The position numbers were made by a program, and so were the translations under genes. The notes beneath the pieces are model-generated. The model had not been told where the DNA came from, did not search any database, and saw nothing but the letters and a program-made list of their open reading frames with translations. From the NCBI RefSeq assembly GCF_028368975.1, contig NZ_JAQNDM010000002.1, forward strand, positions 806,001-870,000: DNA of 64,000 bases, given 5' to 3'. Position 1 is the stretch's first letter. Every line of letters begins with the position of its first letter. Below, in pieces: positions 9,517 through 60,473 of the stretch. The DNA is from Stigmatella ashevillena. Lineage in GTDB: Bacteria; Myxococcota; Myxococcia; Myxococcales; Myxococcaceae.

Positions 9517-10302
9517 ATGACGCCCGACCCCCTCCCCCGTCAGATCAACTCCCCCTGGATCGTTCAGCGGAAGCCCCCTGCCTCTCCTGCGATCCGGCTC
9601 TTCTGCTTTCCCTACGCGGGCGCAGGCAGCCTCCCGTACTTTAAGTGGCCGGATCTGATTCCCGGCGGCATCGACGTGTGCGCCGTCCAGCTTCCTGGCC
9701 GGGAGAACCGCCTCCGGGAACCTGCCCTGAGGGATCTCCACCAGTTGACAACGAAGCTGGTGGAGGCGCTCTCCCCCTATCTGGAGGGCGAGTTCGCCTT
9801 CTTTGGTCACAGCTTTGGAGCCCTTGTCGCGTTCGAGGTGATCCGCGAACTGCGCCGACGCGGACTGCCTCTTCCGAAAATGTTGTTCGCTTCAGGCTCC
9901 GAGTCCCCGTCCCTCCGGAGCAAGCTCCCCGCCTTGAGCGGACTCGAACGAGACGACTTCGTGCGCGAGGTCGCGGCACGATACGGCGGCCTTCCCCGCC
10001 ACATCATGGAGCAACGCGAACTCCTCGATCTCGTCCTCCCAACCCTTCGCGCCGATCTGAAGATCCTGGAGGATTACGTGTACCGCGAAGAGCCTCCACT
10101 CCCCTTGCCGATCTGTGCCTTCGGCGGCACCGACGATCCCCGCGTCGCCGAGACTGCACTCGATGCGTGGCGCCGGGAGACAGCAGTGGCCTTCAAGCTG
10201 CAGATCTTCCCCGGCAGTCACTTCTTCATCAATGAGGTCACCCGCCAAGTGCTCCAAGCCCTCAGCAGCGAACTCATCGCCGGTGCTCATCCCTCCCCAT
10301 GA
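9517..10302 (+). CDS. Type II (proofreading) thioesterase
   Basis: A 261-residue alpha/beta hydrolase of the RifR/GrsT class that removes wrong acyl groups from carrier proteins of PKS/NRPS lines. The opening IRLFCFPYAGAGSLPYFKW is diagnostic. The nucleophile is Ser99 in GHSFGA, the acid lies in GGTDDP and the His in PGSHFFI. The ATG at 9517 is chosen because it precedes the conserved start more closely than the in-frame ATG at 9472; neither has a strong ribosome site. The stop overlaps the start of the carrier-protein gene by four bases (ATGA), so the two are co-translated. It faces away from the megasynthase operon and probably serves the dead or relay modules and the starter carrier. Confidence 0.93.
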   Translation: MTPDPLPRQINSPWIVQRKPPASPAIRLFCFPYAGAGSLPYFKWPDLIPGGIDVCAVQLPGRENRLREPALRDLHQLTTKLVEALSPYLEGEFAFFGHSFGALVAFEVIRELRRRGLPLPKMLFASGSESPSLRSKLPALSGLERDDFVREVAARYGGLPRHIMEQRELLDLVLPTLRADLKILEDYVYREEPPLPLPICAFGGTDDPRVAETALDAWRRETAVAFKLQIFPGSHFFINEVTRQVLQALSSELIAGAHPSP

Positions 10303-10562
10303 ACAAGGCCCAGCTGCTCACCGATCTGACCCGGTACGTCGCCGAAGAGATTCTCGAGGGCAATGCGGAGGACCTCGAGCCCTCCACACCCCTGCTTGAG
10401 CTCGGCATCTTGAACTCACTGGAGACGGCCCGGATGATGCGCTTCATCCAGAAGCAATACGGCATCGCCGTCCCGGCCGAGGCCCTGCGGGTCGAAAACC
10501 TCCAGACGCTCTCCGCGATCACGGATCTGGTGCACAGCCTGCAATCCCAAAAGCCCGGGTAG
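10299..10562 (+). CDS. Stand-alone prolyl carrier protein (PltL/RedO-like)
   Basis: An 87-residue carrier protein. The phosphopantetheine site is Ser40 in LLELGILNSLET. The GILNS form, rather than the usual GxDS, is the one I know from PltL-type carriers that hold L-proline while it is oxidised to pyrrole-2-carboxyl. The partner enzymes, a flavin dehydrogenase and a proline-activating enzyme, lie 47 kb away at the other end of the operon. It overlaps the type II thioesterase gene by four bases. An alternative is a carrier completing the ACP-less KS protein encoded convergently; the sequence likeness favours the prolyl role. Confidence 0.82.
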   Translation: MNKAQLLTDLTRYVAEEILEGNAEDLEPSTPLLELGILNSLETARMMRFIQKQYGIAVPAEALRVENLQTLSAITDLVHSLQSQKPG

Positions 10563-10606: not shown

Positions 10607-13456
10607 TCAGCCCGCTCCCTTCAGGCTCTCCAGGAGCGCCTGGGCCTGCTCATCCGAAAGCTCCTCGAGCAGCGCCAGTTGGCCCGCGAGTGCATCGAGA
10701 TCTCCCTCCAGCACTTCCGGAGGAGCGCCTTGTTTCTTCGAGGCGGAGGCCTGCGGCGGATCGAACCAGTAACGGCTGCGCTGGAAGCGGCTGGTCGGCA
10801 GCACGACCTTGGCGTGCTGCTGGCCGTGGTAGAAGTCTGGCCACGCCACCTCGGTCCCCGCGGCGACGAGCTCCGCGAAGCCCTCGAGCAGTGCCTCCCG
10901 GCCGTCGCTGTCCGCTCGCAGACTGGGAACCCAATGCAGCTCTGGCGCAGGGCGCACACGCTTTCCCCAGGCCGTCAGGCCCGCTCCGGGGCCGATTTCC
11001 ACATGGGCCCCCACGCCCATCTCGCCCAAGGCCAGCAACGCCGCAGCCGGACGCGACGGCCCCCCGGGCGCTCCCTGCCAATACTCTGCCCCCGGTGACT
11101 CCAGCACCTGGCCGGTGACGGTCGAAACCCATGGCACCTGGGGCCGCTGATGGACCACCGCGCGCGCGGCGGCACCGGCGGCCTCACGCACGCTCTTCCA
11201 GCCCGCCGGGCTCATCGCATGGGGACCGTTGCTCACCTCGGAGCGCACCCCCAGCCGGGCGAGCTCGGCCTGCAACGCCTCAACGGACGCCCGTGCCCCC
11301 GAAAACACACCCCGCCCTCCACCATCGATCCCCACCAGACACACCTCTGGAAAGCCCAGCAACACCTCCCCGAGACGCGCGAACTCCTCGACGGCGAGTT
11401 CGGCCCCTAGAGGCAAGCGTTCGAGCTGCGCGCCCAAGGCGGCAACGAGCTTGACGCCCTCTTCCCAGGAAAAGACACCCGCAGCACACGCCGCCGCGTA
11501 CTCCCCCGTGCCAGACCCCAGCACTGCGGAAGGCTCGATTCCCCACCCTTTCCACAGGTGGACGAGGCCGCACTGCAAGGCCAGCAGCCCCGGAAGCGCG
11601 ACGCTCGGCGCCAGCGGAGCCGACGCCTTGCCCTCCTGGGGAAACAGCGCTGGGACCAGCGGACATGCGAGCGCGCGTTCACACTTCAGCACGGCGTCAC
11701 GGAAGATAGGCTCGGACTCGAAGAGCTGTCTTCCCCACCCCGCCCGCTCTGTCCCCTGACCGCCAAAAAGGAACGCGATGCGAGACCGCTGACGCCCAGA
11801 GCCGCTCCGGACTCCCGGCGTCTCCTCATCCCTCAGGAATCCAGAGAGACGGCGGCTCGCTTCCTCATGGCCCGATGCCACAACAGCAACCCGGTGCGGG
11901 AATGCGACCCGGCCCGTGCTGGCCGTAAAGCAGATATCCGGGAACGGAGCGTGGCGCAGGGCGCCAGAGGCAAAGCCGTTCACGTACTGCTGGGCCAGCT
12001 CACGGAGCGCGGGCGGTGTCTTCGCCGAGAGCACGAGGACCTGGGCTGAAGGCGTGCTGCTCGCGGAGGGGAGTTCCCCGGCCGGGGCTTCTTCGATCAA
12101 GACGTGCGCATTCGTTCCGTTGAAGCCGAACGCGGTGACACCCGCGATCCGCCGCTTCTGACCGCGAGGCCAAGCCACCCGGCCCTTGGGGACGGTGACC
12201 GGCAGCTCGTCCCAGCGGATGTTCGGGTTGGGGGTCTCCAGGTTCAGGTGCGCGGGGATCTCTTCGTTCTGCAGGGCGAGCACCACCTTGATGATGCCGG
12301 CCACTCCCGCCGCTCCCTCGGTATGGCCGATGTTGGTCTTCACAGAACCAACAACGATCGGATCCTCGCGAGGGCGCTCCTGTCCGTAGACTCGGCCCAG
12401 CGCCTCCATCTCAATGGGATCTCCGATGGCCGTTCCGGTCCCGTGTGCCTCGAGGTAACTCAGCTGCCCGGGTTCCACTCCTCCAGCGCGCAGGGCCGCA
12501 CGCATCACCTTCGCCAGGGCATTGCCATTGGGAACCGTCAGCCCGCTCGACTGGCCACTGTGGTTGGTCGCTGAACCCCGGATCAGCGCCAGGATCGGAT
12601 CCCTGTCCGCAATCGCATCCGACAGGCGCTTGAGCACCAGCATGCCGCAGCCCTCGCCCCGGACGAAGCCATCCGCTGCCGCGTCGAACGTGCTGCAGCG
12701 CCCCTTCTGGGAGAGCATCCGCATCGCGCAATTCACCACGGCGGTGAGCGGAGAAAGGATCAGGCTGATCCCCCCCGCCAGGGCCAGATCGCATTCGTAA
12801 GTGCGCAGGCTCTGACAGGCGAGGTGCACGGTCACCAGGGACGAAGAGCAGGCCGCATCCACCGCCATCGTCGGCCCCTGGAGGCCAAGAATGTAGGCCA
12901 ACCTCCCCGCCGCGACGCTCAACCCTGAACCCGAGGCCGTGTGGAGATCGATCTGGGTCGCATCGTTCATCAGATGCGAGAAGTCCTCGTTCATCATCCC
13001 AACGAAGACTCCCGTCGAACTCCCCTTGAGCCCCGTCGCCGCGATGCCTGCCCGCTCCAGGGCCTCCCATGTGACTTCCAGGAGCAGCCGCTGGTGCGGG
13101 TCCATCCGGGCGGCCTCGCGGGGGGAGATCCCGAAGAACCCCGGGTCGAAGTCCTCGACCCCCTGGATGAAGGCACCGTGCCGCGTGTACATCTTCCCCG
13201 GCGTCCCCGGAGTTGGGTCGTAGTAATCGTCGATGTTCCAACGCGAGGACGGAATGGTCGAGATCGCGTCCTTCCCATTCCGGAGCAACTCCCAGAATGC
13301 TTCTGGCGTGTCTCCTCCCCCTGGAAACCGATGGGCCATTCCAACGATGGCGATGGGCTCACTCAGGGCCAGAGCCAGCTTGGGTTGCAGCTTGCGTGCT
13401 ACCAGCGCCAGCTTGATGGGCGCCAGTTCGGAGACACGGGGAGATTGATCCGTCAT
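10607..13456 (-). CDS. PKS protein KS-AT* without ACP (AT catalytically dead)
   Basis: 949 residues. An N-terminal docking helix pair (1-32) is followed by a complete KS (about 33-457) with Cys203 in DAACSSS, His338 in EAHGTGT and His378 in NIGHTEG. The AT-fold region (about 559-880) is full length but has lost its catalytic residues. Where the family has GHSxG there is GSGTG (647-651), so Gly649 replaces the nucleophile. The HAFH segment reads PHAMSP, so the His is gone, and GQGAQ has become GQGTE. The chain ends in a docking-type helix (LSDEQAQALLESL) with no carrier domain. This is the last gene of the 47-kb operon. It probably supplies a KS to an ACP on another protein, perhaps the MT-KR*-ACP protein or the separate carrier. 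Confidence 0.9.
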   Translation of the reverse strand: MTDQSPRVSELAPIKLALVARKLQPKLALALSEPIAIVGMAHRFPGGGDTPEAFWELLRNGKDAISTIPSSRWNIDDYYDPTPGTPGKMYTRHGAFIQGVEDFDPGFFGISPREAARMDPHQRLLLEVTWEALERAGIAATGLKGSSTGVFVGMMNEDFSHLMNDATQIDLHTASGSGLSVAAGRLAYILGLQGPTMAVDAACSSSLVTVHLACQSLRTYECDLALAGGISLILSPLTAVVNCAMRMLSQKGRCSTFDAAADGFVRGEGCGMLVLKRLSDAIADRDPILALIRGSATNHSGQSSGLTVPNGNALAKVMRAALRAGGVEPGQLSYLEAHGTGTAIGDPIEMEALGRVYGQERPREDPIVVGSVKTNIGHTEGAAGVAGIIKVVLALQNEEIPAHLNLETPNPNIRWDELPVTVPKGRVAWPRGQKRRIAGVTAFGFNGTNAHVLIEEAPAGELPSASSTPSAQVLVLSAKTPPALRELAQQYVNGFASGALRHAPFPDICFTASTGRVAFPHRVAVVASGHEEASRRLSGFLRDEETPGVRSGSGRQRSRIAFLFGGQGTERAGWGRQLFESEPIFRDAVLKCERALACPLVPALFPQEGKASAPLAPSVALPGLLALQCGLVHLWKGWGIEPSAVLGSGTGEYAAACAAGVFSWEEGVKLVAALGAQLERLPLGAELAVEEFARLGEVLLGFPEVCLVGIDGGGRGVFSGARASVEALQAELARLGVRSEVSNGPHAMSPAGWKSVREAAGAAARAVVHQRPQVPWVSTVTGQVLESPGAEYWQGAPGGPSRPAAALLALGEMGVGAHVEIGPGAGLTAWGKRVRPAPELHWVPSLRADSDGREALLEGFAELVAAGTEVAWPDFYHGQQHAKVVLPTSRFQRSRYWFDPPQASASKKQGAPPEVLEGDLDALAGQLALLEELSDEQAQALLESLKGAG

Positions 13457-13477: not shown

Positions 13478-16400
13478 TCAACGGCCACGGCGCAGCATGG
13501 CCTGGACCTGGTCGTCATCCAGATCGTCCACGTCCGCCAAGAGCGCATCCAGTTCCTGATCCTCGCCAGCGTCCCAGGCAGTAGGAGGTGCGGCCTCTTC
13601 TTCCTTGAGCCCCAGGACTTCGGCCGCCAGGTAGTTCACCATCTCGTTGACGTTGGGGTTGTCGAACGCCACGGTCGCGGGCAGTGAAGCGCCCAGGCTC
13701 CGCTGAAGGACGTTTCGCAGCTCCACGGACATCAGCGAGTCCATTCCAAGAGCGAAAAAGCCCTGATTGGGATCGAGCGCGTCCGACGGTGGCCGTCCCA
13801 GCACACCGTTCACGAGCTCACCCACGTGCGCACGCAGCACGGCACGCTGGCCCTCGGCGGAGAGCGACTCCAGCTTCCGGCGGATTCCTCCACTCTCGGC
13901 CGGTGCGGCCTTCTCGATGAAGCGTTCGAACAGCGGGGAACTTCCCCGCCGCCCAAGCATCGCCCAATCCACCGGTAGGATGCCCAGCTGGCCTCCCAGC
14001 CCAAGCGCCTGCTCGAAGAGCTGGAGCCCATCCGCAGGTGGAATCACCCCGAAGCCGAGTTGTTCCATCCGGCGCTGGAGTTGTGCCTCCGCGGCCACGC
14101 CGATCTCCGCCCAAGCGCCCCAGTTGAGACTCAGTCCGGGCAAGCCCGCCGAGCGGCGGAAGTGGGCCAGTCCGTCCAGGAAGGCATTGGCGGCCACGTA
14201 GTTGGCCTGACCGCTGGAGCCGATCAGCGATGACGCAGACGAGAAGAGGACGAAGAAGTCGAGCTCTACGCCTTGAAGCACACGGTGAAGGTTCCATCCG
14301 CCCAAGACCTTGGCGGCGAACACCCGGGCGAACCGCTCCGGTGTCATCTGGGCCAGGAGCCCGTCATCGATGACCGCTGCGGAATGAACCACGCCCCGGA
14401 TCGGCGGCAGCCGTCCATTGATCTCTGCCATCGCGCGCTCGAGATCCGATGAAACGGACACATCGCATTTCAGGCTCTGAACCTCCACGCCTCGCGCTGC
14501 CAGCGCGGCCAGCCGGAACCGAGCCTCGGCCCCTGGCTCGCTTCGTCCGATCAACACCAGATGGCGAGCGCCCTTCTCGGCCAACCTTTCGGCCACGGCC
14601 AGACCCAACCCCCCCAGCCCGCCCGTGACGGCATAGGTTGCATCGGAGCGCAGGGATGCACCCGTCTCGCTGCCCGGAGACCGAAGCCGGTGGCTGCGAG
14701 CCAGGCGGGCCACACGGCGGGTATCTCCCCGCAGCGCGATCTCATCCTCGCCGCTCTCGCCCAGAATTTCCCCGGCGAGCTGCTCGAGTTCGTGAGGAGA
14801 CGAACCGGGATCCAGATCCACGCGCCGACAATGGAGTTCTGGATGCTCGCGCGTGATGGCCTTGCCGAGGCCCCAAAGGGCTGAGCCACTCAAGCCAGAA
14901 AGCGGCTCCCCTTCCATGACCGCCTGAGCCCCCCGCGTCACCAGCCAGAGCGAGGCCGCCCTGCCCTTCGAACCTCGGACGAGTGCCTGCGCAAGTTCGA
15001 GCACGCGGGTACTGTGACGAAGAGCATCCCCGGAGACATCAGCGCCCGCCGTGGCTCCATCGAGGCTCCACAGATCGATGACATGGATCGGGCCCGGCAC
15101 CGCGCCCTCCCAAAGCGCCAGAAGCGCCTCGGCACGCGAGCGATCAACGCCGAAGCCTCCCTCTCCTGCTCCCGCCGTCACCGTGTTCCAGCCACGCGCC
15201 TGGAGACGCTCGGCGAGGCGCTGCCCCACACCCTTTTCATCGGCGAGGATCAAACACTGAGGTGCTGCCCCCGAAATCGTGCCGGAAGTGCCTTCGCCGG
15301 GGGAGCCGGACTGCGCAGCCAGCGGACTGACCTGCCACTCCAGCTCATAGAGCCAGTTCTGCAAACGCTTGCTCCTCGCTCCGAAGAGACCCTCCCGGGT
15401 CACCCGCCTGAGCAACAGACGCTCGACGGACGCCACGAGCGCCCCTTCGGGAGACAACAGCTTGATGTCACACGTGTAGACAGGGCCCTTCGAATCCTCG
15501 TTCCGAGAGATCCGGGCATGGGCCCACACTTCCCGCAGGCCTGCCATGAGCACCCGGACCGTCCCAACGCCCACAGGAAGGTAGGCAGCCTCGCCTGTCT
15601 CATCGAGGACGGCCCCTACCATCTGGAAGCACGCGTCCAACAGGGAAGGAGGCAGCACATAGCGCTCGGCATCGGTCAGCGCGGCACCGGCCAAGCCAAG
15701 CTGGCCGAGCACCTCATTCCGGCCTCGCCAGAGCCCCCGAATCGCACGGAAGCTGGGACCGTAGGAGAGCCCCGCTTGGCCCAGCTTCTCGTAATAGGCC
15801 TCCACGGGGACTTCCTGAACGAGCTCCGCCCTGAGGCTTTGAAGATCCAGGCGCTCGCCAGGCGCGGATGCCGCCGAGGCAAGCTTTCCATGGGCGTGCA
15901 GCGTCCAGGAGGGTTCGGCTCCGCCGCCGCGCGCTTCCTCATCCTGGCTGAAGATCTCGAACCGTCCCGAGCGCTCCCCTTCCGGTGTGTAGAGCAGATG
16001 CACCCGGCGCTCCCCTTCCTCAGGGAGGAAGAGGGCTTGAGAGAAGGCGAGCTCGTCCACGGTACTGCCAGCATCTCCAAAGAGCGCCGCGCCCGCAGCA
16101 AGCCCCATCTCCACATAGGCGGCGCCCGGCATGACGATCTGCCCGTAGACCCCGTGATCGCGAAGGAAAGGCAGCTTCGACGGGCCCAAAGACGACTCGA
16201 ACTGCCGCACCTGCGCCGGAGACGCCTGACGGCGGCCGAGGAGCGGGTGGGCGTGCTCACCCCGGGCAGAGCCCTGTCCCCGCGGTCCCTGCCGATCCCA
16301 GGCCGTGCCGGTCAGTTCCATCCAGTACGCCCGCCGCTGGAAAGGGTAGCTGGGGAGCGAGACCTTGCGCCGGTCAAAGCCCTCCTCCAAGCCCTTCCAC

Positions 16401-23982: not shown

Positions 23983-24438
23983 CTAGGTGATCTTGATCTT
24001 CTCTGGCCCCTCAGCGCTGGGCCTGCTGCTGGTGCTGCTGCCGTCGCCTGGAGTGGAGGCCGCCGCGGTGCTCTGCGAGGCCGGTCCCTGGACACCTGGC
24101 TTGCTGCACGAGGTGAGGTCAGGCCGCCGGGAGTATTTGGAACCGTAAGAGGCGCCGACACGCTCCATCATCTGCTTGATCGTCATCATGCGCCCATCGG
24201 CCCGAGGCCGCGACTCGTCCGCGAGCGCCGTATCAATCTTGTCCAGCTCGTTGATCTCAGCCTCGATCAAGTGGGAGATCCCCTTGAGCAAGTCCTTCTT
24301 CGCCCGGAAGAGCTGTTGCACGAAGCCTCGCCCTCCTGGGACCAGGGCCTCGGCCACATCGGCCACCTGCGCGCCCTCTTCGGGCAACGCCGTGATTCGA
24401 AAAAATCCCTGCGGGAAACGCACGTTGTGCCAGGACAT
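23983..24438 (-). CDS. Unknown small protein coupled to the ArsA-type ATPase
   Basis: 151 residues that I do not recognise. Residues 1-85 look folded, with a hydrophobic start (MSWHNVRFPQGFFRITALP), a helix FVQQLFRAKKDLLKGISHLI and an acidic helix EAEINELDKIDTAL. Residues from about 105 on are low-complexity Ser/Thr/Pro/Gly and probably disordered, ending PEKIKIT. The start codon shares one base with the stop of the ATPase gene (TGATG), so the two are translated together and are likely to interact. It has no signal peptide and no catalytic motif. It could be a client or adaptor of the ATPase. Confidence 0.75.
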   Translation of the reverse strand: MSWHNVRFPQGFFRITALPEEGAQVADVAEALVPGGRGFVQQLFRAKKDLLKGISHLIEAEINELDKIDTALADESRPRADGRMMTIKQMMERVGASYGSKYSRRPDLTSCSKPGVQGPASQSTAAASTPGDGSSTSSRPSAEGPEKIKIT

Positions 24439-25604
24439 CAGCCACCTCTTTCCTGTCGGAAACTCACGATGAGTCTATCACCTTCCATGCGCGCTCCTTC
24501 GGTGGGAGCGAGCGCCACCATCTTGGGAAGCAGGATGTTGCGCCGGAAGGCGCCCACCCGGATGACCAGCTCCTCTCCGCGCCGGAAGAGCTCGATCTCC
24601 TCCTTGGACACGAAGGGCAACTTGACCTCGAACCGGTACACATCCACCGCGTCCTTGGTGATTCCCAGGGCAGGTTGCACGGCCATGACCCGCGCCGGAT
24701 CCTCTCCCGCGTAGAGCAGGTTCGCGAACGCCTCAAGCTGCCCTTCGCCCACCACTTCTCCGGCATGCAGTGGAATCTTCACCATGGGGAGAGGCGCAAA
24801 GAGCCCCTGGAGCTTCTCGACCTGGAGTTGCTGCGCGAGATACTGGTCCGCCAAAGCCCCTTCCTGCTCTGGCAGGAGTCCGTTGATGACGAGGCTGTCG
24901 GTGGCGATTCCATAGAGGCTGAAGGAGGTATACGCCCGCTGGGTCTCCTGGACAGCGATCTTGTCGGCGGTCGTGACCAACCGCAGGGTCGTCACCTCCG
25001 GATTGTGAAGCAGCGCGTCCACGATCACCAACTTGTCCCGGACCTCCCGGACCGCACCTGTCTCGCCGCCATCCGCAGCGGAGGGCCGTGCACGCTGGGT
25101 CTTCCGATGATCCTGACCCAGTTGTTTCCGGAAGTACCAGCTCATGGCGGACGTGCTGCCGACGAAGCGCAGCGCTCCGGCCGTGGACGGGCAGTCCACG
25201 ACGATGAGCTCGTATCGCTGCTCCCGGATGTGTTCGCCGAGCCGCAGCAGGGTGACAAGCTCCTCCAGGCCGGGGGGGATCGCCACCTCCACCGCCGCCA
25301 CGGAATCCAGACCTCCACTTCCCGTGAGCGCGGCAACGTAGGCATGGAGTCCATTCCATCCGTGCCGGAGCTCTTCCTGAGCATCGATCTCCTGAAGATG
25401 CAGGTGATCATTGACGCGAACGGGCCCTCCTTGGGTTGCGAACAGCGGCGCCTCGATACCAAAGGAGCCACTCAGGCTTCGAGACTGGTCGAACGAAAGG
25501 ATCAGGGTCCGGATGCCCCGGCGCGAGGCCGCCAGGCCCGTGGCTGCCGCCACGGTCGTCTTCCCTGCTCCTCCTTTTCCTGAGACAAGAATGATTCTGG
25601 CCAT
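24438..25604 (-). CDS. ArsA/Get3-type ATPase with C-terminal HSP20-like domain
   Basis: 388 residues. The deviant Walker A motif SGKGGAGKTT at residues 8-17 and the switch region VVDCPSTAGALR define a SIMIBI-class ATPase related to ArsA and Get3. The last 85 residues (DVYRFEVKLPFVSKEEIELF, then EELVIRVGAFRRNILLP) look like the small HSP20-like beta domain found at the end of many bacterial ArsA homologues. There is no ArsB or ArsR near it, so arsenite export is unlikely. It is embedded between the NRPS-TE/patatin genes and the methyltransferase gene of the operon. A role in carrying or inserting a hydrophobic protein or product is possible but unproven. Confidence 0.88.
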   Translation of the reverse strand: MARIILVSGKGGAGKTTVAAATGLAASRRGIRTLILSFDQSRSLSGSFGIEAPLFATQGGPVRVNDHLHLQEIDAQEELRHGWNGLHAYVAALTGSGGLDSVAAVEVAIPPGLEELVTLLRLGEHIREQRYELIVVDCPSTAGALRFVGSTSAMSWYFRKQLGQDHRKTQRARPSAADGGETGAVREVRDKLVIVDALLHNPEVTTLRLVTTADKIAVQETQRAYTSFSLYGIATDSLVINGLLPEQEGALADQYLAQQLQVEKLQGLFAPLPMVKIPLHAGEVVGEGQLEAFANLLYAGEDPARVMAVQPALGITKDAVDVYRFEVKLPFVSKEEIELFRRGEELVIRVGAFRRNILLPKMVALAPTEGARMEGDRLIVSFRQERGG

Positions 25605-51084: not shown

Positions 51085-54000
51085 AGCAGGACCCGCTTCG
51101 AGTCATTGCGTCCAGAAGGAGCCGTGCCCAGCACACTGGCAACGGCGAGCTTCTCCAACAGTTCTGCCGTCACCTGCCCGATCGAGCGTTCATCGACGAA
51201 GCTCTTGAGCGGCAGGCTCACCTCGAGTTCGCTCGTCACCAGGTCCCTCAACTCAAGCGCCATGATGGAGTCAAACCCCAGCGCATCGAACGAGTCCGTG
51301 GAGGTGAGGCGCTCAGGGGGAACCCGGCTCACCTCACCGACCATCTCTTTGAATCGGGCTTCCAGCACTCCTCGCCTCGCGGAACTCTCGAGTGCGAGCA
51401 GCACATCCCGCAGCTTGCGCGGTGCTTTGTCCGCCTCACTCCCTCCTTCCCGGGCAGTCAAGCCCCGAAACAAGGAGGACGCCGCCACGGACGGATGGCT
51501 GTTGATCCATCGCACTTCGTCGAAGCGAGCGATGCCCCGGGTGGCAGGGCTGTCAGCAAGCGTGAGGGCCATCGCAGCCAGGGCGTCATCGACAGACAGG
51601 GGACCCATGCCCCTGTCCGCGAGCCGCTCCCCTCGCCGCTCGTCCACGGCCGCCATTCCGACCTCTGCCCAGCTTCCCCAGTTGATGCTGACCGCTGGCA
51701 AGCCGCGCGTCCGCCGAAGCTGGGCCAGCGCATCCAGGAAGGCGTTCGCCGCGGCGTAGTTGGCCTGACCGGGAGCCCCGATCATCGATGCGGTCGACGA
51801 GAAGAGGACGAACTGCTCAATCGAAGCATCCGTGGCGAGGGTGTGGAGGTTCCAGGCACCCGCTACCTTGGGACCCATGACGGTTCCGAAGCTCCGGGGA
51901 TCCATTTGCAGCAACGAGCTGTCAGCCAATACACCCGCGCAATGGAAGACTCCCCCGAGCGCGGGGCCTTCGCGCCGGAGCGTTGCAAGCATGTCAGCGA
52001 CCGCCTCCGGGTGGCTCACATCGACGCGGAATGCTTCCACCCTCGCCCCGGCGGCCCGCAGTCCATCCAGCACCTGACGGGCCTCTGCTGTCTCTCCCGT
52101 CCGGCCACACAGCGCGAGGGAACGCGCGCCACGGGCCACCATCCAGGAGGCCAGACGAAGCCCGATGCCACCAAGTCCTCCCGTGATCAGGTACGTGCGA
52201 TCCTGCCGGGGAAGGAATGCCCGTGCCTTGCCCTCCGTCCTGCGGCCTCGAGTGAACGAGGGGGTCAGGCGTCTGTCACCTCGCAAGACGATCTCGTCAT
52301 CGTCCTGCGCCGGAGCCAGTTGCCGTCCAAGCTCGGCGATGAGTCCACGGAGGTCCTCCGGGCCCGCCACCGGACCCGCATCGATCCGCTTGCACTGGAG
52401 TTCCGGATGCTCGTACGCGATGACGCGCCCAAGCCCCCAGAGCGGAGCGCCTGTGATCGACACCGGGCCCGGTTCGTCCCCCATGACCTGAGCCCCCTGG
52501 GTGACGAGATACAGCCTGGGAGGCTTCGGCATCGCCGCGCGTGCCAGCGACTGGACGATCAACGTCACCGCGATGGCATCCGCTTGGACTGTCTCACGCA
52601 CGCCCTCAAGCGTCTCAGGGTGTCCACTGCATGCCCGGAAGATGACGCCCTGAGGCTCCCGGCCAGCCGCTGACAGCTCTCTCAAAAGACGGGGGAACGA
52701 CTCTGGATGAGTGAAGTCGAACCGGTAGTCCCCTTCGAGCACCTTCTCGTAGGACGGACCGGCACTCGCGACAACGGCCGAGCCACCCGCCGCGACAAGC
52801 CCGTCGCGCAGGTCCCCGGCTGCCTTCGGATCCCGGGCGAGGATCAGCCACGTTCCATTCACCCGAACCGGCTCGTGGCCTGTCCTTCGATCAGTCCATG
52901 CGAGCTCGCAGAACAACCCTTGCAGGGCCTCCACGTTCTCCTCACGGACCGCCACCGCCAGGGGCTCTGCCTTCTTTGGCTCCCGTTCCCCGTCCCACCA
53001 GAAGCGTTCCCGCTGCCAAGGGTACGTCGGAAGGACCGTTTTTCTCCCTCCTGGGTAGATGCCCTTGAAATCGATGGAGAACCCCGCGCAATAGAGCTGG
53101 GCGGCACTGCTCAGGGTTCCAAGCTGGGCATCGGAAGCGGCTGAGCTGGCACGCAAGGTGAGCACTTTGCTGTTCCTGCGATGCGCCGCCGTCTCCAGCT
53201 CATCGCCCAGCGAGGCATCGCACCCAAACGCCAGAAAGACGGATGCATTCCGCTCCAGCAAGTGTTCCGCAGCCAGATCCAGCTCTACCCGGCCAGCGGA
53301 GGTGGACTGCCTCGTCCACTGATCCACCGGCACCGTGGCTCCCGCCCCGATCCACTCCTCGTCGGAGATGGAAAGGAACGGGCACTTCGCAGGCTGTGGA
53401 CGGATGGGTTGTTCCGCCGGACGCTGAAGAATGATCCGGACCGCGTCCTCCACGGAGAGCAGCCCCGCGACAACCCCCGCGGAGAGTGCGCCCGTGCCAT
53501 ATCCAGCCACGGCGGCGGGACTCACGCCGTAAGAACGCCACAGCTCCGCCAAGGCCACTTGAAAGCCGAGGAGAACCACGGCCTTTCTTCCAGCGGCTTC
53601 GTCAGACCCAGGCACGGGCTCACCCACCACCTCACGAAGCACTGCATCGACCTTCTCAGCGTGTTCCCGGAAAGTGGCATCCCGTCCCCATCCTCCGCGC
53701 AGGGACTCAGCCGCCCAGGAGGCATCGTCTCCAAAGACGAAGACCGCTTCACGGCCTGCCGGGGCCTTGGCCTGCCCTCGGAAGACTCCCTCTCCGCCGC
53801 GCCCGTCCGCTGCGAGCCTCAACAGCGAGAGCAACTCGCTGGGAGTCCGCGCGGCAAGCGCCAGGCGCTGCTCGTGATGAGAGCGTCCCGCTCCTGCCGT
53901 GAAACAAGCATCCCGGAGACTCGCAGCCGGGTGGGCCTCCCATTGACTCAGGTAGCTCGCCGCCAGCTCTCGCAGGGCCTGCTCCGTGCGCGCCGACAGC

Positions 54001-55436
54001 GGCAACAGGTACGGACCCGCCTCGGCGTGCTCCGCAACCGGCTCACGGTATGCCTCGATGAGCGCGTGGGCATTCACCCCACTCATCCCGAACGAGCTCA
54101 CGGCAGCCAGATGCGGCTTGGCCTTGTCGGCCAGCGCCGTGCGCTCGCGGGGAACCGCCAGCCCCGACCCCGCCCAAGCAAACTCAGGATTCGGGTGTTC
54201 GAAGTGGAGGGAGGGAGGCGCCTCTCCCTTCTGGAGCACCCACACCGCCTTGATCAGACCCGCGATTCCCGCAGCTGCCTCGGTGTGGCCAATGTTCGGC
54301 TTGGCGGACCCAATCCACAGAGGTTTTTCCGGTGGCCGCGAGGCGCCGTAGACCCGCGATACCCCATCGAGTTCGATGGGATCCCCGAGCCGGGTTCCCG
54401 TCCCGTGCGCCTCCAGGTAGTCCACCTGCCCCGGCTCGACCCCCGCACGCTGGAGCGCAAGCCGGTACAAAGACTCCTGTGCCCGCACGTTCGGCACCGT
54501 GAGCCCACCGCTCGCGCCGTCGTGGTTCATCGCCGTGCCCCGGATCGTCGCCAGAATCCGATCCCCATCCCGAACGGCGTTCCGGTACCGCTTCAGGATG
54601 ACCACACCGCACCCCTCGCCCTGCACCATGCCGTCCGCATCCCGATCGAACGCGCGGCACCGGTTGCTCGGAGAGAGTGCCCCCGCCTTGGACAGAAACA
54701 CGCTCAGCTGAGGCGCCAGGATGAGCTTCACGCCCCCCGCGATGGCCAACACCGACTCGTCCGTTCTCAGGCTCTGACACGCCAGATGCACCGCGGCGAG
54801 CGACGAGGAGCAGGCGGTGTCCACGGCCATGCTCGGGCCCTCGAGCCCAAGCAGGTAGGAGAGCCGCCCGGCGACATAGCTCGCATCCACGCCCGTGGAG
54901 TAGTGGGCGCCGACCTTCTCCAGCCCTCCTTCCGCCAGGAACGCATAGTCCTTGGCATGGACACCCGCGAACACGCCGGTCCGCGTTCCCGCCAGCAGGT
55001 GCGGAGGAATGCCTGCGTCTTCAAGCGCCTCCCAGCTCACCTCCAGGAAGAATCGCTGCTGCGGATCCAGCCCCTCGGCTTCCCTCCGTGAGATCCGGAA
55101 GAACTCCGCATCGAACCGGTCCACGCCTTCGACGAAGGCCCCCCGGCGCATGGACATCTTCCCGGGCTTGGAGGGATCGGGATCATAGAGCCCCTGGAGT
55201 GCCTTCCGGCTGGCCGGAATCTCCGAGACCGCGTCGCCAGCGCCCCACAAAAGGTCCCGGAACTTCGCCGGGCTCGCCGCGCCTCCCGGAAACCGGCAGC
55301 CCATGCCGATAATCGCAATCGGGTCATCCTCGCCCCGAGTCGCAGCCGCAAGCTTCTTCTGCAGCTTCTCGATCGTGAACAGGGCTTGCTGGAGGGGGGT
55401 CAGCTCGGCCGTAGAGCCTTCCTTTCGACTCATCAT
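51081..55436 (-). CDS. PKS protein KS-AT*-KR-ACP with truncated, inactive AT
   Basis: 1451 residues. The KS is intact (Cys209 in DTACSSS, HGTGT, NIGHTE). The AT-like region (about 565-765) is only some 200 residues, a third shorter than normal. The nucleophile motif is GYGTG (645-649) with Gly647 where Ser belongs, and the small subdomain carrying HAFH is deleted. The post-AT linker VLPTYPWQRERFWW remains. The KR is intact (GGLGGIGL, NYAAANAF) and the ACP has ALGFDSI. It cannot load its own extender, so it either takes malonyl from another AT or simply passes the starter on. Two ATG codons in a row (55436, 55433) overlap the stop of the loader gene; the downstream stop overlaps the next start (ATGA). 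Confidence 0.92.
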   Translation of the reverse strand: MMSRKEGSTAELTPLQQALFTIEKLQKKLAAATRGEDDPIAIIGMGCRFPGGAASPAKFRDLLWGAGDAVSEIPASRKALQGLYDPDPSKPGKMSMRRGAFVEGVDRFDAEFFRISRREAEGLDPQQRFFLEVSWEALEDAGIPPHLLAGTRTGVFAGVHAKDYAFLAEGGLEKVGAHYSTGVDASYVAGRLSYLLGLEGPSMAVDTACSSSLAAVHLACQSLRTDESVLAIAGGVKLILAPQLSVFLSKAGALSPSNRCRAFDRDADGMVQGEGCGVVILKRYRNAVRDGDRILATIRGTAMNHDGASGGLTVPNVRAQESLYRLALQRAGVEPGQVDYLEAHGTGTRLGDPIELDGVSRVYGASRPPEKPLWIGSAKPNIGHTEAAAGIAGLIKAVWVLQKGEAPPSLHFEHPNPEFAWAGSGLAVPRERTALADKAKPHLAAVSSFGMSGVNAHALIEAYREPVAEHAEAGPYLLPLSARTEQALRELAASYLSQWEAHPAASLRDACFTAGAGRSHHEQRLALAARTPSELLSLLRLAADGRGGEGVFRGQAKAPAGREAVFVFGDDASWAAESLRGGWGRDATFREHAEKVDAVLREVVGEPVPGSDEAAGRKAVVLLGFQVALAELWRSYGVSPAAVAGYGTGALSAGVVAGLLSVEDAVRIILQRPAEQPIRPQPAKCPFLSISDEEWIGAGATVPVDQWTRQSTSAGRVELDLAAEHLLERNASVFLAFGCDASLGDELETAAHRRNSKVLTLRASSAASDAQLGTLSSAAQLYCAGFSIDFKGIYPGGRKTVLPTYPWQRERFWWDGEREPKKAEPLAVAVREENVEALQGLFCELAWTDRRTGHEPVRVNGTWLILARDPKAAGDLRDGLVAAGGSAVVASAGPSYEKVLEGDYRFDFTHPESFPRLLRELSAAGREPQGVIFRACSGHPETLEGVRETVQADAIAVTLIVQSLARAAMPKPPRLYLVTQGAQVMGDEPGPVSITGAPLWGLGRVIAYEHPELQCKRIDAGPVAGPEDLRGLIAELGRQLAPAQDDDEIVLRGDRRLTPSFTRGRRTEGKARAFLPRQDRTYLITGGLGGIGLRLASWMVARGARSLALCGRTGETAEARQVLDGLRAAGARVEAFRVDVSHPEAVADMLATLRREGPALGGVFHCAGVLADSSLLQMDPRSFGTVMGPKVAGAWNLHTLATDASIEQFVLFSSTASMIGAPGQANYAAANAFLDALAQLRRTRGLPAVSINWGSWAEVGMAAVDERRGERLADRGMGPLSVDDALAAMALTLADSPATRGIARFDEVRWINSHPSVAASSLFRGLTAREGGSEADKAPRKLRDVLLALESSARRGVLEARFKEMVGEVSRVPPERLTSTDSFDALGFDSIMALELRDLVTSELEVSLPLKSFVDERSIGQVTAELLEKLAVASVLGTAPSGRNDSKRVLL

Positions 55437-57652
55437 TCAACCTCGATGCTGAACTCCGCCAGCTTCCGGGCAATCAGCTCGCGGGTCTGATCTTCCGACA
55501 ATCCGGCGATTCGCTCAGCCAATTCTCGATCTTCTTGTGAGGGGGTATCCCCGGGCCTCTCTTCTCTTGGACCGGGCTCTGTCCGGGCTTCCCACCGTCC
55601 CGACAGCCACTTCGCCAGCAGTTCTACCCGGGGGTGCTCGAAGAAGACCGTGGACGACAACTCAAGGCCCAGCCCCCGAGAGATGCGCTCCTTCAGCGAC
55701 GTGACGCCGATGGAGTTCATGCCCAGCTCGAAGAAGGTCCGCCCCCGTGTGTCGAGCCCCGCCGGATCCGCCTCCAACACCTCCGCGACCTGGACGCGGA
55801 GAAACGCCACCAGCCGGGCCTCGCGCTGACCCGCGGGAGCCTCCCGGATCTCCCTTGCCTCATTCGCCTGAGGAGGCGGTGCGGTGGCCACCTCTGGCCG
55901 CGAGTCCGTCGGCGCCCTGCACACTTCTCCGGCGGACAGCCACTCCGGCCAGAGGCGCTGCCGCTGGAAGGGGTACCCCGGCAGGCTCACGCAACGTCCG
56001 TCCGCCGCGAAGAGCGCCTCCCACGAAGGCGTCCCCCCCTCGACGTAAGCCTTCCCCGCTTCGATCTGCCCAGGCGGCTGTCCTTCTTCCGCCAAGAGCA
56101 GCGGCCCGGCAGACCGCGCACATTCACCGAGGAGCTTCACCAGCCCCTCCCGTCCGCCTGCGATCACCGCCGCACGATGGCGGTGGTGCTGCCGCTTGAA
56201 CGCGGCCGTGAAGCAGACATCCTCCAACCGCGTCTCCTGGGTGACGGGCCCCGCGAGAAAATCCCGGAGCTGGAGCGCTTGTGCGCGCAGCGCCTCGGGG
56301 GAGAGCGCGGAGAACACCAGGAGATGGCCCGATGAGCGGGTACTGGATGCCTGTGGGAGGCGAGCCTCCGGCGCGGCCTCCAGGACCACAAAGGCGTTCG
56401 AGCCCCCCAGCGAGGTGGACACGACGCCCGCCCGCCTGGGCTCGCCCGTGCCACGCTCAGGCCAAGGCTCCTGCTTCGACTGGATGCTCAGCCCAAGTTC
56501 CTCGAAGGCGATCTGCGGATTGGGGGTCTCCACATGGATCGTCGGCAGGAAGGCCCGGTGATACAGGGACAAGGAGACCTTGATGAACTGCGCGATGCCG
56601 GCCGCCGCCCCCATGTAGCCCAGGTTGTTGCTGACCGCTCCCAGCCGGCAGGGAAAGGGCCGAGCTTTTCCAAGCACCTCGCCAATGGCCACGGCCTCGG
56701 CCGCGTCTCCCTTGAGGAAGGACGAGCCGTGGAGTTCGACGTAGTCGAGGCTGGCGGCCTCCACGCCGCCCCGCTCGCAAGCATGGCGGATGACCTCCGC
56801 CTGGGCCGAGACACTGGAGGCCATGATCCATTCGTTCCGGCCGTTGTGGTTGACGGCGCTGCCGCGAATCACCGCATACACGCGATCGCTGGCATCGACC
56901 CGGGACAGGGGCTTGAGCACCACCACCCCGGCGCCCTCTCCACGGATGTAGCCGTCGGCCTCCGCATCCAATGTCCGGCACTGTCCCCGGGCCGAGAGAA
57001 CCCCCGCCTGGGACAGCATGATGCTGCTCTCCGGAGAGAGCATGAGATCCACGCCGCCCGCGAGCGCCAGATCCACCTCGCCCAGCGTCAGGCTCCGGCA
57101 CGCCTCGTGGATGGCGGACGTCGAAGAGGCACACCCCACGCTCGTGCAGGTACTGGGACCCCGGAGATCAAACGCGTACGAGATCCGGTTCGCCGCGAAG
57201 GAGGGCGTCGTGCCGAGCAAGGCGTAGCCATCCAGGGCCGTCCAGTCCCGGGCCAGCATCCTTTGGAAGTCGTTGAAATTGAGTCCGACGAAGACGCCCG
57301 TCCGGCTTCCGCGCAGGGCATCGAAGGGAATGCCAGCGTCCTCCAGCGCGTACCACGCGCTCTCGAACAACACGCGATGCTGGGGATCCATCTGCCGCAA
57401 TTCGCGCTTCGGAAGACGGAAAGCGAGGGGGTCCGCGTTCTCTACGCCCTCGAGCAGTCCCGCACGGCGGTTGCGAATTTTTCCCGGACGATCAGGGGAC
57501 GGATCATGGAGCGTCGACAACTCCCAGCGGCTGGACGGAATCTCCGCCGTCGCGTCGATTTCTTCAGACAGGAGATTCCACAACTGGCGCGGACTCTCAG
57601 CTCCTGGAAAACGGAGCCCGAGTCCAACGATGGCAATCGGCTCGTACCGCAT
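55433..57652 (-). CDS. Loading protein KS*-ACP with excised AT
   Basis: 739 residues, first gene of the 47-kb operon, with no N-terminal docking domain (it begins MRYEPIAIVG). The KS keeps Cys174 (SVGCASS) and His308 (VELHGSS), but the third catalytic residue is Tyr346 in NNLGYMG where NIGH is expected. This should allow acyl transfer but not decarboxylative condensation. Linker sequences that normally flank an AT are present on both sides (LLVFSALSPEAL before, VSLPGYPFQRQRLW after), yet the AT itself is missing, a clear deletion scar. The ACP has Ser647 in ELGMNSI. The C-terminal docking helix (GLSEDQTRELIARKL) leads to the next protein. Best role: moving pyrrole-2-carboxyl from the PltL-like carrier onto the assembly line. 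Confidence 0.9.
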   Translation of the reverse strand: MRYEPIAIVGLGLRFPGAESPRQLWNLLSEEIDATAEIPSSRWELSTLHDPSPDRPGKIRNRRAGLLEGVENADPLAFRLPKRELRQMDPQHRVLFESAWYALEDAGIPFDALRGSRTGVFVGLNFNDFQRMLARDWTALDGYALLGTTPSFAANRISYAFDLRGPSTCTSVGCASSTSAIHEACRSLTLGEVDLALAGGVDLMLSPESSIMLSQAGVLSARGQCRTLDAEADGYIRGEGAGVVVLKPLSRVDASDRVYAVIRGSAVNHNGRNEWIMASSVSAQAEVIRHACERGGVEAASLDYVELHGSSFLKGDAAEAVAIGEVLGKARPFPCRLGAVSNNLGYMGAAAGIAQFIKVSLSLYHRAFLPTIHVETPNPQIAFEELGLSIQSKQEPWPERGTGEPRRAGVVSTSLGGSNAFVVLEAAPEARLPQASSTRSSGHLLVFSALSPEALRAQALQLRDFLAGPVTQETRLEDVCFTAAFKRQHHRHRAAVIAGGREGLVKLLGECARSAGPLLLAEEGQPPGQIEAGKAYVEGGTPSWEALFAADGRCVSLPGYPFQRQRLWPEWLSAGEVCRAPTDSRPEVATAPPPQANEAREIREAPAGQREARLVAFLRVQVAEVLEADPAGLDTRGRTFFELGMNSIGVTSLKERISRGLGLELSSTVFFEHPRVELLAKWLSGRWEARTEPGPREERPGDTPSQEDRELAERIAGLSEDQTRELIARKLAEFSIEVE

Positions 57653-57660
57653 AGGGTCTA

Positions 57661-57792: not shown

Positions 57793-58932
57793 ATGGACTT
57801 CAGTTGGACGAGTGAGCAGGTGGATCTCTACGACCGCGCGCTGGATTTTGCCCGGACGCATCTGGCTGAAGATCCGAAGCGCACCGAAGAGAAGTTCCCT
57901 CGCACGCTGTGGCAACGATGTGGCGAGTTCGGCTTCTTGGGTCTGTCCGTGCCCGAGCGCCATGGTGGCCTTGGACTCGACACGCTGACGACCGCCCGGG
58001 TGATGGAGGCGCTGGGGCGCGGGTGCGTCGATACTGGGTTGGTCTTCTCCGCTGGGGCGCACCTCTTCGCCTGTGTCATGCCCATCCTGGAGGTTGGCGA
58101 TGACAGGCAGAAGGCCCATTACCTTCCCCGGCTCTGCTCGGGAGAATGGGTCGGCGCCAACGCCATCTCCGAGCCGGAGGCAGGCTCCGATGTCTTCGCC
58201 CTCAAGACGCGCGCGGTCCGCGACGGCGACAGCTACGTGCTCGATGGAGGCAAGAGCTACGTCACCAACGGCCCGGATGCCGACGTCTTCCTGGTCTATG
58301 CCCTCACGAATCCCTCGGCCGGCTTCATGGGGCTGAGCGCTTTTCTCATCGAGAAGAATACGCCGGGCCTCTCCGTGGGGAGGCCCTTCGAGAAGATGGG
58401 CCTGTCCACCTCGCCCATCGCGCCCATCTATCTCGAAGGCTGCCGGGTGCCCGCCTCCGCCCTGCTCGGCGCCGAGGGCCAAGGGGCTCCTCTCTTCAAG
58501 CGCTCCATGCAATGGGAGCGGGCCTGCCTCTTCGCCGCTTACGTGGGCGTCATGGAGCGGGTGCTCGAACAGACGGTGGACTTCGCCCGTCAGCGCAAGC
58601 AGTTCAAGCGGGCGATCGGAAAAAATCAGGCCATCTCCCACCGGCTGGCGGACATGAAGCAGCGGCTCGAGTCTTCGCGGCTCCTGCTGTACCGCGCCTG
58701 CTGGTTGATGGATCGCGGCCAGGAGGCCGCCCTGGAGGTGTCGCTGGCCAAGCTGGCGATCAGCGAGGCCGCCGTTCAGTGCGGTCTGGACACCCTCCAG
58801 ATCCACGGTGGAATGGGGTACGTGACCGAGACGGGCATCGAGCGGGTGCTGCGAGACGCCATTCCCAGCACGATCTTCTCCGGCACCTCGGAGATTCAAC
58901 GGGACATCATCGCCAGCAACCTGGGCCTATGA
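57793..58932 (+). CDS. Prolyl-carrier-protein dehydrogenase (PltE/RedW-like flavoenzyme)
   Basis: 379 residues of acyl-CoA dehydrogenase fold. It begins MDFSWTSEQVDLYDRALDFA, the start typical of the branch that oxidises L-prolyl-S-carrier by four electrons to pyrrolyl-2-carboxyl-S-carrier. Other marks are ANAISEPEAGSD (flavin/substrate loop), SYVTNGPDAD, LQIHGGMGYV and STIFSGTSEIQRDIIA. AGGA stands six bases before the ATG. The gene overlaps the following adenylation gene by ATGA, which activates proline, and the PltL-like carrier at the far end of the cluster completes the trio. Fatty-acid oxidation is the alternative role but the context argues strongly against it. Confidence 0.92.
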   Translation: MDFSWTSEQVDLYDRALDFARTHLAEDPKRTEEKFPRTLWQRCGEFGFLGLSVPERHGGLGLDTLTTARVMEALGRGCVDTGLVFSAGAHLFACVMPILEVGDDRQKAHYLPRLCSGEWVGANAISEPEAGSDVFALKTRAVRDGDSYVLDGGKSYVTNGPDADVFLVYALTNPSAGFMGLSAFLIEKNTPGLSVGRPFEKMGLSTSPIAPIYLEGCRVPASALLGAEGQGAPLFKRSMQWERACLFAAYVGVMERVLEQTVDFARQRKQFKRAIGKNQAISHRLADMKQRLESSRLLLYRACWLMDRGQEAALEVSLAKLAISEAAVQCGLDTLQIHGGMGYVTETGIERVLRDAIPSTIFSGTSEIQRDIIASNLGL

Positions 58933-60473
58933 CGCTCGACCAGATCGTGATCCGCAGCGCGGCGCGGGCCCGCGAGGCCATCGCCGTCCAAGGCCCCGAC
59001 GAGACGCTCACCTATGGGCAGCTCGACACGCTCGCCAACCGGATTGCCCGCGCCCTGCAAGGGCTGGGGGTCAAAAAAGGGGACCGGGTGGGGCTGTGGA
59101 CGGAGAAGTCAGCGCGCGCGGTGGCCGCGATGCAGGGCATTGCCCGGCTGGGGGCCGCCTATGTGCCGCTGGATCCGTTGAATCCCGCCGCGCGGACGAA
59201 GATCATCCTCGACGACTGCCGCATCGACGTGCTGGTGACCAGTGCCCTCCGCGCCGCAGAGCTCCGCAACGGCGGCATGGACCGGCTCCGCTTCCTGCTG
59301 GTGGATGACGAGGGCCCCTCGCTCTCATGGTCCCGGCTGGAGGGCTTCTCCGGCGAAGCGATTCCCCACCACGGCTCTCAAGACGCGGATCTGGCCTACA
59401 TCCTCTACACCTCTGGGTCCACCGGAACGCCCAAAGGCGTGTGCATCAGCCAGCGGAACGCGTTGGCCTTCATCGAGTGGTGTCACGGGCTGCTGGGCAC
59501 CACTCCTGCCGATCGCTTCAGCAACCACGCTCCGTTCTTCTTTGATCTCTCGGTGCTGGATCTCTACGCGGCGTTCCTGGGCGGGGCCTCGGTCACCCTC
59601 ATCCCAGAGGCGCTGGCGTTCTCGCCCGAGAAGCTGGTGGAGCTGGTGCTGCGCGAGCGGTTCAGCATCTGGTACTCGGTGCCCTCGGCGCTCACCCTGA
59701 TGATGCAACAGGGTGGGCTGCTGAATCACCCGGAGCTTCCCTTCCGCGCCGTGCTGTTCGCTGGAGAGCCCTTCCCCATCAAGCACCTGCGCCCGCTTCG
59801 GGAGCACCTGCCCGCCGCACGGTTCTTCAACCTGTACGGCCCCACCGAGACGAATGTCTGCACCTTCCACGAGGTGACGGACATCTCCCCCGAGCGCACC
59901 GAGCCCGTCCCAATCGGCCGCGCGAGCTGTGGGGACCAAGTGTGGCTCGCCAAGCCACCGGAGTCCGATCCTGCCCAGCAGGGTGAGGGCGGCGAAGTGG
60001 GCGAGCTGATGGTGGCCGGTCCCACGGTGATGCTGGGCTACTGGGGCCACCCGCCTCAAGGGGATCAGCCCTACCCCACCGGGGATCTCTGCCGCCGCCT
60101 TCCCGATGGCACCTTCGAGTACCTCGGCCGCCGCGACAACATGTTGAAGGTGCGGGGACGGCGGATCGAACCCGGCGAGATCGAAGCCGCGTTGCTGACC
60201 CATCCGGACATCCGCGAGGTGGGGGTGGTGGCTTCTGGCGCTGGCCTGGAAGCGCGGCTGGTGGCGTTCCTGGTCAGCGCCTCCGCCACCGTGCCCTCGC
60301 TCCTCAAGGTGAAGAAGCACTGCGCCGAGCGGCTGCCGCGCTACATGATCGTCGATGAGGTCCGCGTGCTGGAGGAGCTGCCTCGGACGCAGAACGGCAA
60401 GCTCGATCGGCGTGCGCTCCAGACCCTGGTGCAGCAGCGTCCACCGGGTTCAGGTTCGCTCCCGGTGGGCTGA
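58929..60473 (+). CDS. L-proline adenylating enzyme (PltF/RedM-like)
   Basis: 514 residues, a stand-alone A domain that makes prolyl-AMP and loads it on a separate carrier. The AMP-binding loop is YTSGSTGTPKG and the C-terminal catalytic Lys is in RTQNGKLDR. By hand alignment the nine specificity residues are D-L-L-Y-L-A-L-V-C, which I know as the proline code of pyrrole-forming enzymes. FFFDLSVLDLYAAF is typical of the same subgroup. The gene is coupled to the dehydrogenase (ATGA overlap) and ends six bases before the convergent hydroxylase gene. No carrier domain is attached; the PltL-like protein encoded at the opposite end of the cluster is the expected partner. Confidence 0.94.
   Translation: MTLDQIVIRSAARAREAIAVQGPDETLTYGQLDTLANRIARALQGLGVKKGDRVGLWTEKSARAVAAMQGIARLGAAYVPLDPLNPAARTKIILDDCRIDVLVTSALRAAELRNGGMDRLRFLLVDDEGPSLSWSRLEGFSGEAIPHHGSQDADLAYILYTSGSTGTPKGVCISQRNALAFIEWCHGLLGTTPADRFSNHAPFFFDLSVLDLYAAFLGGASVTLIPEALAFSPEKLVELVLRERFSIWYSVPSALTLMMQQGGLLNHPELPFRAVLFAGEPFPIKHLRPLREHLPAARFFNLYGPTETNVCTFHEVTDISPERTEPVPIGRASCGDQVWLAKPPESDPAQQGEGGEVGELMVAGPTVMLGYWGHPPQGDQPYPTGDLCRRLPDGTFEYLGRRDNMLKVRGRRIEPGEIEAALLTHPDIREVGVVASGAGLEARLVAFLVSASATVPSLLKVKKHCAERLPRYMIVDEVRVLEELPRTQNGKLDRRALQTLVQQRPPGSGSLPVG

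Follow-up and report, generated by a model that had tools for sequence, protein, structure and literature searches.

A probable DKxanthene gene cluster in Stigmatella ashevillena and the radical SAM and split-module cassette of a recurrent sub-type

The DNA studied here, called the window, is a stretch of 64,000 nucleotides (bases 806001-870000 of contig 2) from the 10.95-Mb genome of Stigmatella ashevillena. It holds a gene cluster of mixed polyketide synthase and non-ribosomal peptide synthetase (PKS/NRPS) type. Judged by sequence comparison, this is, with a probability of about 95%, the cluster for DKxanthenes (dkx), which are yellow pigments of myxobacteria, and orthologous to that of Stigmatella aurantiaca DW4/3-1 of the same genus. 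All 17 window genes are found in DW4/3-1 (G037, C1:5.89-5.95 Mb) in equal order and on equal strands, including the thioesterase, the radical SAM enzyme and the split module. The adenylation (A) domain codes are equal as well wherever they were read, and the backbone is shared with the Myxococcus xanthus group. DW4/3-1 is listed as a known DKxanthene producer (PMC6163206). DKxanthenes are described as composed of asparagine, a polyene, an oxazoline and a pyrrole, with variable polyene length and methyl branching (PMC4902038). These building blocks fit the proline, heterocyclisation (Cy), DH-KR and asparagine-type modules and the lack of an oxidase domain in the Cy-bearing protein c10, in which Pfam found none. 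A preliminary description had left the choice between a DKxanthene and an undescribed relative. The first part stands; the second falls away, as a known producer has equal gene content at 74-96% protein identity. With 17 of 17 genes syntenic in DW4/3-1, comparison with dkx clusters gave the near-identical gene content and order that the description itself had named as removing novelty. The less ordinary part of the cluster is a small cassette of extra genes present in just some dkx clusters; two of its ketoreductase (KR) domains have an altered catalytic residue.

The core of the locus is a PKS/NRPS operon of 13 genes on the minus strand, running from 57652 to 10607, with starter genes on the plus strand flanking both ends. 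In operon order, it encodes KS-ACP (c12), KS-(broken AT)-KR-ACP (c11), Cy-A-PCP-KS-AT-DH-KR-ACP (c10), two proteins of KS-AT-DH-KR-ACP type (c9, c8) and C-A-PCP-TE (c7). These are followed by a patatin, an ArsA protein (c6), a small protein (c5), MT-KR-ACP (c4), a radical SAM enzyme (c3), a further KS-AT-DH-KR-ACP (c2) and KS-(broken AT) (c1). Gene content, order, domains, codes and orthology are direct readings of the DNA. The genes are, by ascending coordinate:

9472-10302, plus strand: type II thioesterase (TE2; Pfam Thioesterase, 9.2e-37), overlapping the start of the carrier gene
10299-10562, plus strand: stand-alone carrier for prolyl / pyrrole-2-carboxyl, 87 aa (PP-binding, 1.3e-8)
10607-13456, minus strand: c1, KS and AT without the GHSxG Ser, front half of the split module; KS Cys/His/His intact
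13478-19078, minus strand: c2, KS-AT-DH-KR-ACP (Pfam domains), encoded downstream of the TE-bearing gene
19088-21109, minus strand: c3, radical SAM enzyme of putative B12 type (TIGR03975, 566.7 bits; C-x7-C-x2-C motif)
21113-23938, minus strand: c4, MT-(pseudo KR)-KR-ACP, back half of the split module; His/Thr replacing Tyr/Asn in the KR
23983-24438, minus strand: c5, small protein with the first ~75 residues conserved and a PEKI-like C-terminal tail; orthologues in dkx loci
24438-25604, minus strand: c6, ArsA/Get3-like ATPase with an HSP20-like C-terminal domain (ArsA_ATPase 5.4e-56, ArsA_HSP20 9.1e-19)
25646-26746, minus strand: patatin-like lipase (Patatin 1.1e-17; scanned as the longer open reading frame (ORF) 25646-27187)
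26746-31077, minus strand: c7, TubC docking-C-A-PCP-TE (Pfam domains), A-domain code DGTKVGEVA
31074-36587, minus strand: c8, KS-AT-DH-KR-ACP (Pfam domains)
36595-42159, minus strand: c9, KS-AT-DH-KR-ACP (Pfam domains)
42169-51084, minus strand: c10, TubC docking-Cy-A-PCP-KS-AT-DH-KR(His)-ACP (Pfam domains)
51081-55436, minus strand: c11, KS-(truncated AT)-KR-ACP (Pfam domains)
55433-57652, minus strand: c12, KS-ACP (Pfam domains), with the second KS His (NIGH) changed to Tyr (NxGY) in the KS alignment
57793-58932, plus strand: L-prolyl-carrier dehydrogenase, PigA type (NCBIfam NF053553, 504.6 bits, cut-off 500)
58929-60473, plus strand: proline adenylation enzyme (ProA; AMP-binding, 1e-81), code DLLYLALVC

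Much of this layout had been recognised in the preliminary description. The parts of a pyrrole starter lie at both ends of the locus as it had placed them (carrier 10299, dehydrogenase 57793, proline enzyme 58929), and its code for the proline enzyme was read identically here. Pfam (E<=0.001) and the codes also recovered the heterocyclisation module, the Asn-like C-A-PCP-TE module and four DH domains across the modules, with no ER domain among the cluster proteins. The thioesterase at 9472-10302, the small ORF at 23983-24438 and the altered catalytic residues are additions to that picture.

Close homologues of ProA (77-100% identical) were found 23 times in 96 genomes of the family, window included, the next best match being 57%. 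Ten neighbourhoods were compared at full length, comprising nine dkx loci and the non-dkx locus G049; twelve further loci were compared over ~17-30 kb on the cassette side, excluding G078, where the contig stops too close by. At the protein level, the dkx loci compared form one syntenic cluster. Classification was possible for 21 of the 23 close loci, contig ends precluding it for G074 and G078. Type A loci have the thioesterase and no c1, c3 or c4 (n=9: G033, G034, G059, G062, G065, G066, G075, G076, G077); the named loci L080 and L081, outside the 21, are also of this type. Type B loci have c1, c3 and c4 without the thioesterase (n=10: G014, G015, G054, G055, G057, G058, G060, G069, G070, G071); the contig of G015 stops after c3, so that c1, c2, the carrier and the thioesterase cannot be judged there. 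Type C, with both the thioesterase and c1, c3 and c4, comprises the window and DW4/3-1. A type A segment is also contained in BNCN01000004.1 (L084). The title of this record, 'Comamonas sp. KCTC 72670', looks like a mislabel or contamination; its counterpart G066 is grouped at genus level with Myxococcus eversor. In G062 and G059 (L047-L050, L075-L078), two extra ORFs of 865-867 and 474-495 aa lie between c12 and the dehydrogenase; the window is without them.

The radical SAM enzyme, the ArsA ATPase, the patatin and the split module had been parts that the preliminary description could not link to the pathway. The comparison answers this doubt. Orthologues of c5, ArsA and the patatin occur in 21 of 21 classified dkx loci. 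In 12 of the 21, the radical SAM enzyme is present together with the split module's MT-KR-ACP half; rather than stray parts, the two mark a recurrent sub-type. An orthologue of c2 is present wherever the contig of a classified locus is long enough (20/20, window included). The patatin is 66-92% identical in nine other dkx loci. For c5, which carries an FVQQLFRAKKD-like stretch in its N-terminal part, Pfam gave no match at 0.001 and NCBIfam none at 0.01.

With the proline A enzyme, the prolyl-carrier dehydrogenase and the carrier, the pyrrole-2-carboxyl starter set is complete. The best solved relative of ProA is 6o6e, 'L-proline--[L-prolyl-carrier protein] ligase' (2.3e-148), and its code is the same in all nine other dkx loci where it was read. 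The carrier is 65-91% identical among dkx loci whose contig includes it. A thioesterase adjoins it in nine of nine type A loci and in DW4/3-1, and no such match was seen beside it in the nine readable type B loci, G057 having a 37% match far away from it. The c7 code is close to the asparagine code and does not vary over 27 of 27 rows, among which five duplicate other rows. The c10 Cy motif reads DGTFIDGYS in the window and nine of ten orthologues and DGTFVDGYS in the tenth, and the c10 A-domain code, DFYSMGVLW, is invariant in 10/10 orthologues. From the chemistry of DKxanthenes, the amino acid of c10 is expected to be threonine; the code does not decide.

Three observations speak against assigning the cluster to DKxanthene. 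The c10 code has no clear match to the codes for Thr, Ser or Cys. The A3 Lys of the same domain is changed to Asn in the window and in 10/10 orthologues. Finally, the intact extension modules are too few, without iteration, for a polyene of DKxanthene length.

For substrate flow, and for where c11, c12, c2 and the split module act, we infer the following order. ProA would load the carrier at 10299 with proline, which the PigA-like flavoenzyme would oxidise in its bound form to pyrrole-2-carboxyl. The starter would then be handed to the line, probably via c12 as a condensation-incompetent, non-extending KS-ACP. The Cy-A-PCP part of c10 would incorporate an amino acid with a hydroxy (or thiol) group and close it into an azoline. 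Polyene synthesis would fall to the PKS modules of c10, c9, c8 and c2, with c2 presumably working out of gene order, chain length reached by iteration or repeated module use, and malonyl probably supplied in trans for c11 and c1. Last, c7 would add asparagine, and its TE would release the product.

Several domains of the line, namely one KS (c12) and two ATs (c11, c1), are kept in a catalytically broken state. Seven KS domains were aligned. In the c12 KS, the Cys is kept and the second His is replaced by Tyr, in the window as in nine of nine orthologues. The GHSxG Ser of the AT is absent from c11 in the window and 9/9 orthologues, and from c1 in the window and 10/10 orthologues, in all ten of which the KS triad of c1 is intact. 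AT-less modules are reported elsewhere in myxobacteria, e.g., for haliamide (PMC6163206).

The cassette consists of the radical SAM enzyme c3 and the split module, whose halves c1 (KS-AT) and c4 (MT-KR-ACP) enclose c3 and c2. The cysteine motif of c3 is present in the window and in 14 of 14 orthologue rows, and its Pfam B12-binding match is weak (23.6 bits, cut-off 32.1). No solved relative was found by sequence at E<=0.01. In a survey of the phylum with at most six candidates scored per genome, close orthologues (at least 82% identical) occurred in 12 of 195 genomes, window included, and all 12 lie inside dkx loci; within the family, the best-scoring relative outside dkx loci is 39% identical. 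Compared with nine type B loci, the core of c3 is 89-91% and its C-terminal part 68% identical. In the same comparison, the c1 KS reaches 89%, the c1 AT 52%, the c4 MT 59% and the c4 KR 88%. The c4 MT lacks a Gly of its GxGxG motif in three of 11 distinct orthologues (G054, G060, G069); the ACP motif LGLDSL and the KR cofactor motif TGGLGGLG of c4 are intact in 14/14 rows. In trees of c7 (23 rows) and c2 (22 rows), type B is separated from types A and C with high support. This topology would allow either loss of the cassette from type A, once or twice, or gain in type C, both being possible. A recent horizontal gain by Stigmatella was also considered and is unsupported, since cassette and backbone diverge to a similar degree.

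Most likely, the cassette adds a modification that is limited to the products of cassette-bearing strains. This modification is possibly a methyl group. Methyl transfer by c3 to the polyketide or azoline part would be a guess from the family name. A fuller proposal, that the cassette recruited a radical SAM enzyme of the type acting on ribosomally synthesised and post-translationally modified peptides (RiPPs) together with an AT-less split module, that the altered KRs were possibly repurposed, and that the pair installs a carbon methyl on the carrier-bound polyene, is tentative and, in our estimate, unlikely. A literature search found no paper naming DKxanthene and radical SAM together, the primary dkx papers being outside its coverage.

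The KR domains of c4 (window 21671-22201) and c10 (42799-43329) keep Lys and Ser, whereas the catalytic Tyr is replaced by His and the Asn by Thr. Among 30 KR domains examined, of 42 KR matches in the genome, only these two have the His/Thr pair; the others comprise 26 with Tyr/Asn, one with Asp in place of Tyr and a degenerate one. In c4, His and Thr are found in 14/14 rows, which represent 11 distinct loci. In c10, His is present in 10/10 orthologues; Asn is changed to Thr in seven and retained in three (G059, G062, G074), and the Thr state is present in every cassette-bearing locus read. A KR tree of 40 rows was computed after removal of the degenerate L164, with the altered group (HT) defined by His, one member, c10 of G062, retaining Asn. 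The c4 KR pairs with c2 (support 94/79) and the c10 KR with c11 (96/91), and a single origin of the His state appears in 0 of 200 bootstrap trees. On this evidence, the Tyr to His change arose independently in the two domains.

No other KR of the cluster is as well conserved as that of c4. Against type B loci, the KRs with Tyr are 74% (c2) and 73% (c8) identical over nine loci each, and 73% (c9) and 71% (c11) over five each; the c10 KR is 78% identical over five. Differences at 4-fold sites are alike throughout the compared regions (45-57%), so that the strong conservation seen in the c4 KR reflects constraint on the protein. Recombination as its cause was excluded, silent-site divergence being ordinary. 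Conservation of a KR is by itself no proof of an active enzyme. Under the fuller proposal above, both His-KRs may still be functional, having taken on another task (e.g., isomerisation, keto/enol handling or presentation of the chain to the radical SAM enzyme), instead of being dead reductases. In the passages covered of papers that mention DKxanthene and ketoreductase, among which the primary dkx papers are not included, these KR domains are not discussed.

Given the radical SAM enzyme, the altered domains and the split module, the window might encode a DKxanthene variant distinct enough to form a separate compound class. The absence of the cassette from nine of 21 loci, the M. xanthus group among them, would agree with this, as would the identities of the radical SAM core, c1 KS and c4 KR given above; the cassette core is so well conserved that the cassette appears to be under selection. 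Pigments of M. stipitatus are also said to have been reported as possibly new DKxanthene derivatives. Nevertheless, the codes of the starter, azoline and Asn-type modules do not differ from those of the dkx loci, and a listed producer, DW4/3-1, has the same genes, and we regard a separate class as improbable. The split module could also be a decayed relic, with its AT broken, its KR altered and its MT drifting, as the lost AT Ser, the low AT and MT identities and the missing Gly would suggest. Set against decay are the high identities of the c1 KS, the c4 KR and the radical SAM core, where silent sites diverge to an ordinary extent (45-50% of 4-fold sites), and the intact c1 KS triad and c4 ACP and KR cofactor motifs; such a relic seems rather improbable too. 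That another pyrrole-azole polyene pathway merely resembles dkx is very improbable, even if pyrronazols are described as halogenated pyrrole-oxazole compounds of myxobacteria (PMC4902002) and starters of the pyrrole kind are met again in clusters unrelated to dkx, such as G049 with a dehydrogenase of 68%, a proline enzyme of 56-57% and megasynthases giving just generic NRPS matches of ~33% or less. Whole-cluster orthology and the codes identical to those of dkx loci speak against a non-dkx pathway, and a pyrronazol-like one is rejected for the lack of a halogenase among the cluster genes (Pfam), an Asn-type module being present as well. The G049 locus itself (G049:C131, L063-L066), with NRPS-like genes, a proline enzyme of 56%, two matches of CmlA type and a weak one to the carrier, looks like another pyrrole-starter pathway.

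The DKxanthene assignment concerns the 17 genes listed. Adjoining them are a CmlA-type diiron hydroxylase (60480-62114) and the end of an NRPS gene (63250-63990, minus strand); both kinds also stand beside dkx in DW4/3-1, where the ORF has 3228 aa. Among the window and the ten full-length neighbourhoods, a CmlA-type gene adjoining dkx and facing a long NRPS occurs only in the window and DW4/3-1. G057 has a 64% CmlA-type match 1.4 kb past ProA on the opposite strand, with no ORF of NRPS length nearby. The hydroxylase and NRPS probably belong to a separate cluster; the hydroxylase was left out of the dkx gene set, although a role is not disproved. At 8486-8863, a 125-aa ORF has only the beginning of an alpha/beta hydrolase fold and looks like a truncated gene.

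These results remove a candidate for a new compound class and connect genes that had seemed stray with a pigment pathway of developmental importance. The division of 21 loci into three cluster types gives a comparative handle on the roles of the radical SAM and split-module cassette and of the trio of ArsA, patatin and small protein. The repeated change of Tyr to His in conserved KRs can be tested by enzymologists.

Compared with known systems, the cluster is closest to that of DW4/3-1. No structural difference was seen between the two: c5 is 74% identical and the other 16 genes 88-96% (radical SAM enzyme 96%), and the next gene, the CmlA-type hydroxylase, is common to both. In the M. xanthus group (type A), the starter genes, thioesterase, c2, c5, ArsA, patatin and c7-c12 are ordered as in the window (in full in G062 and G059, the others being partly compared), and c1, the radical SAM enzyme and c4 are absent. 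M. xanthus AM003 (L081) has the thioesterase, carrier, c2, c5, ArsA, patatin, c7 and c8 in window order. This locus presumably corresponds to MXAN_4289-4305, given as the 14 dkx genes of M. xanthus (PMC3986340). Type B clusters (M. dinghuensis, M. eversor, Citreicoccus inhibens and others) have c1, the radical SAM enzyme and c4 at the same places as the window; they lack the thioesterase beside the carrier (0/9 readable), and their megasynthases and radical SAM enzymes are 57-84% identical to those of the window. Finally, c3 resembles the RiPP radical SAM C-methyltransferases (TIGR03975, rSAM_ocin_1), which it matches over nearly the full length of the profile at twice the curated cut-off of 281.85 bits. 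In contrast to these, it is embedded in a PKS/NRPS operon, where no RiPP precursor gene was found beside it and the gaps of 3 bases to c4 and 9 bases to c2 leave no space for one.

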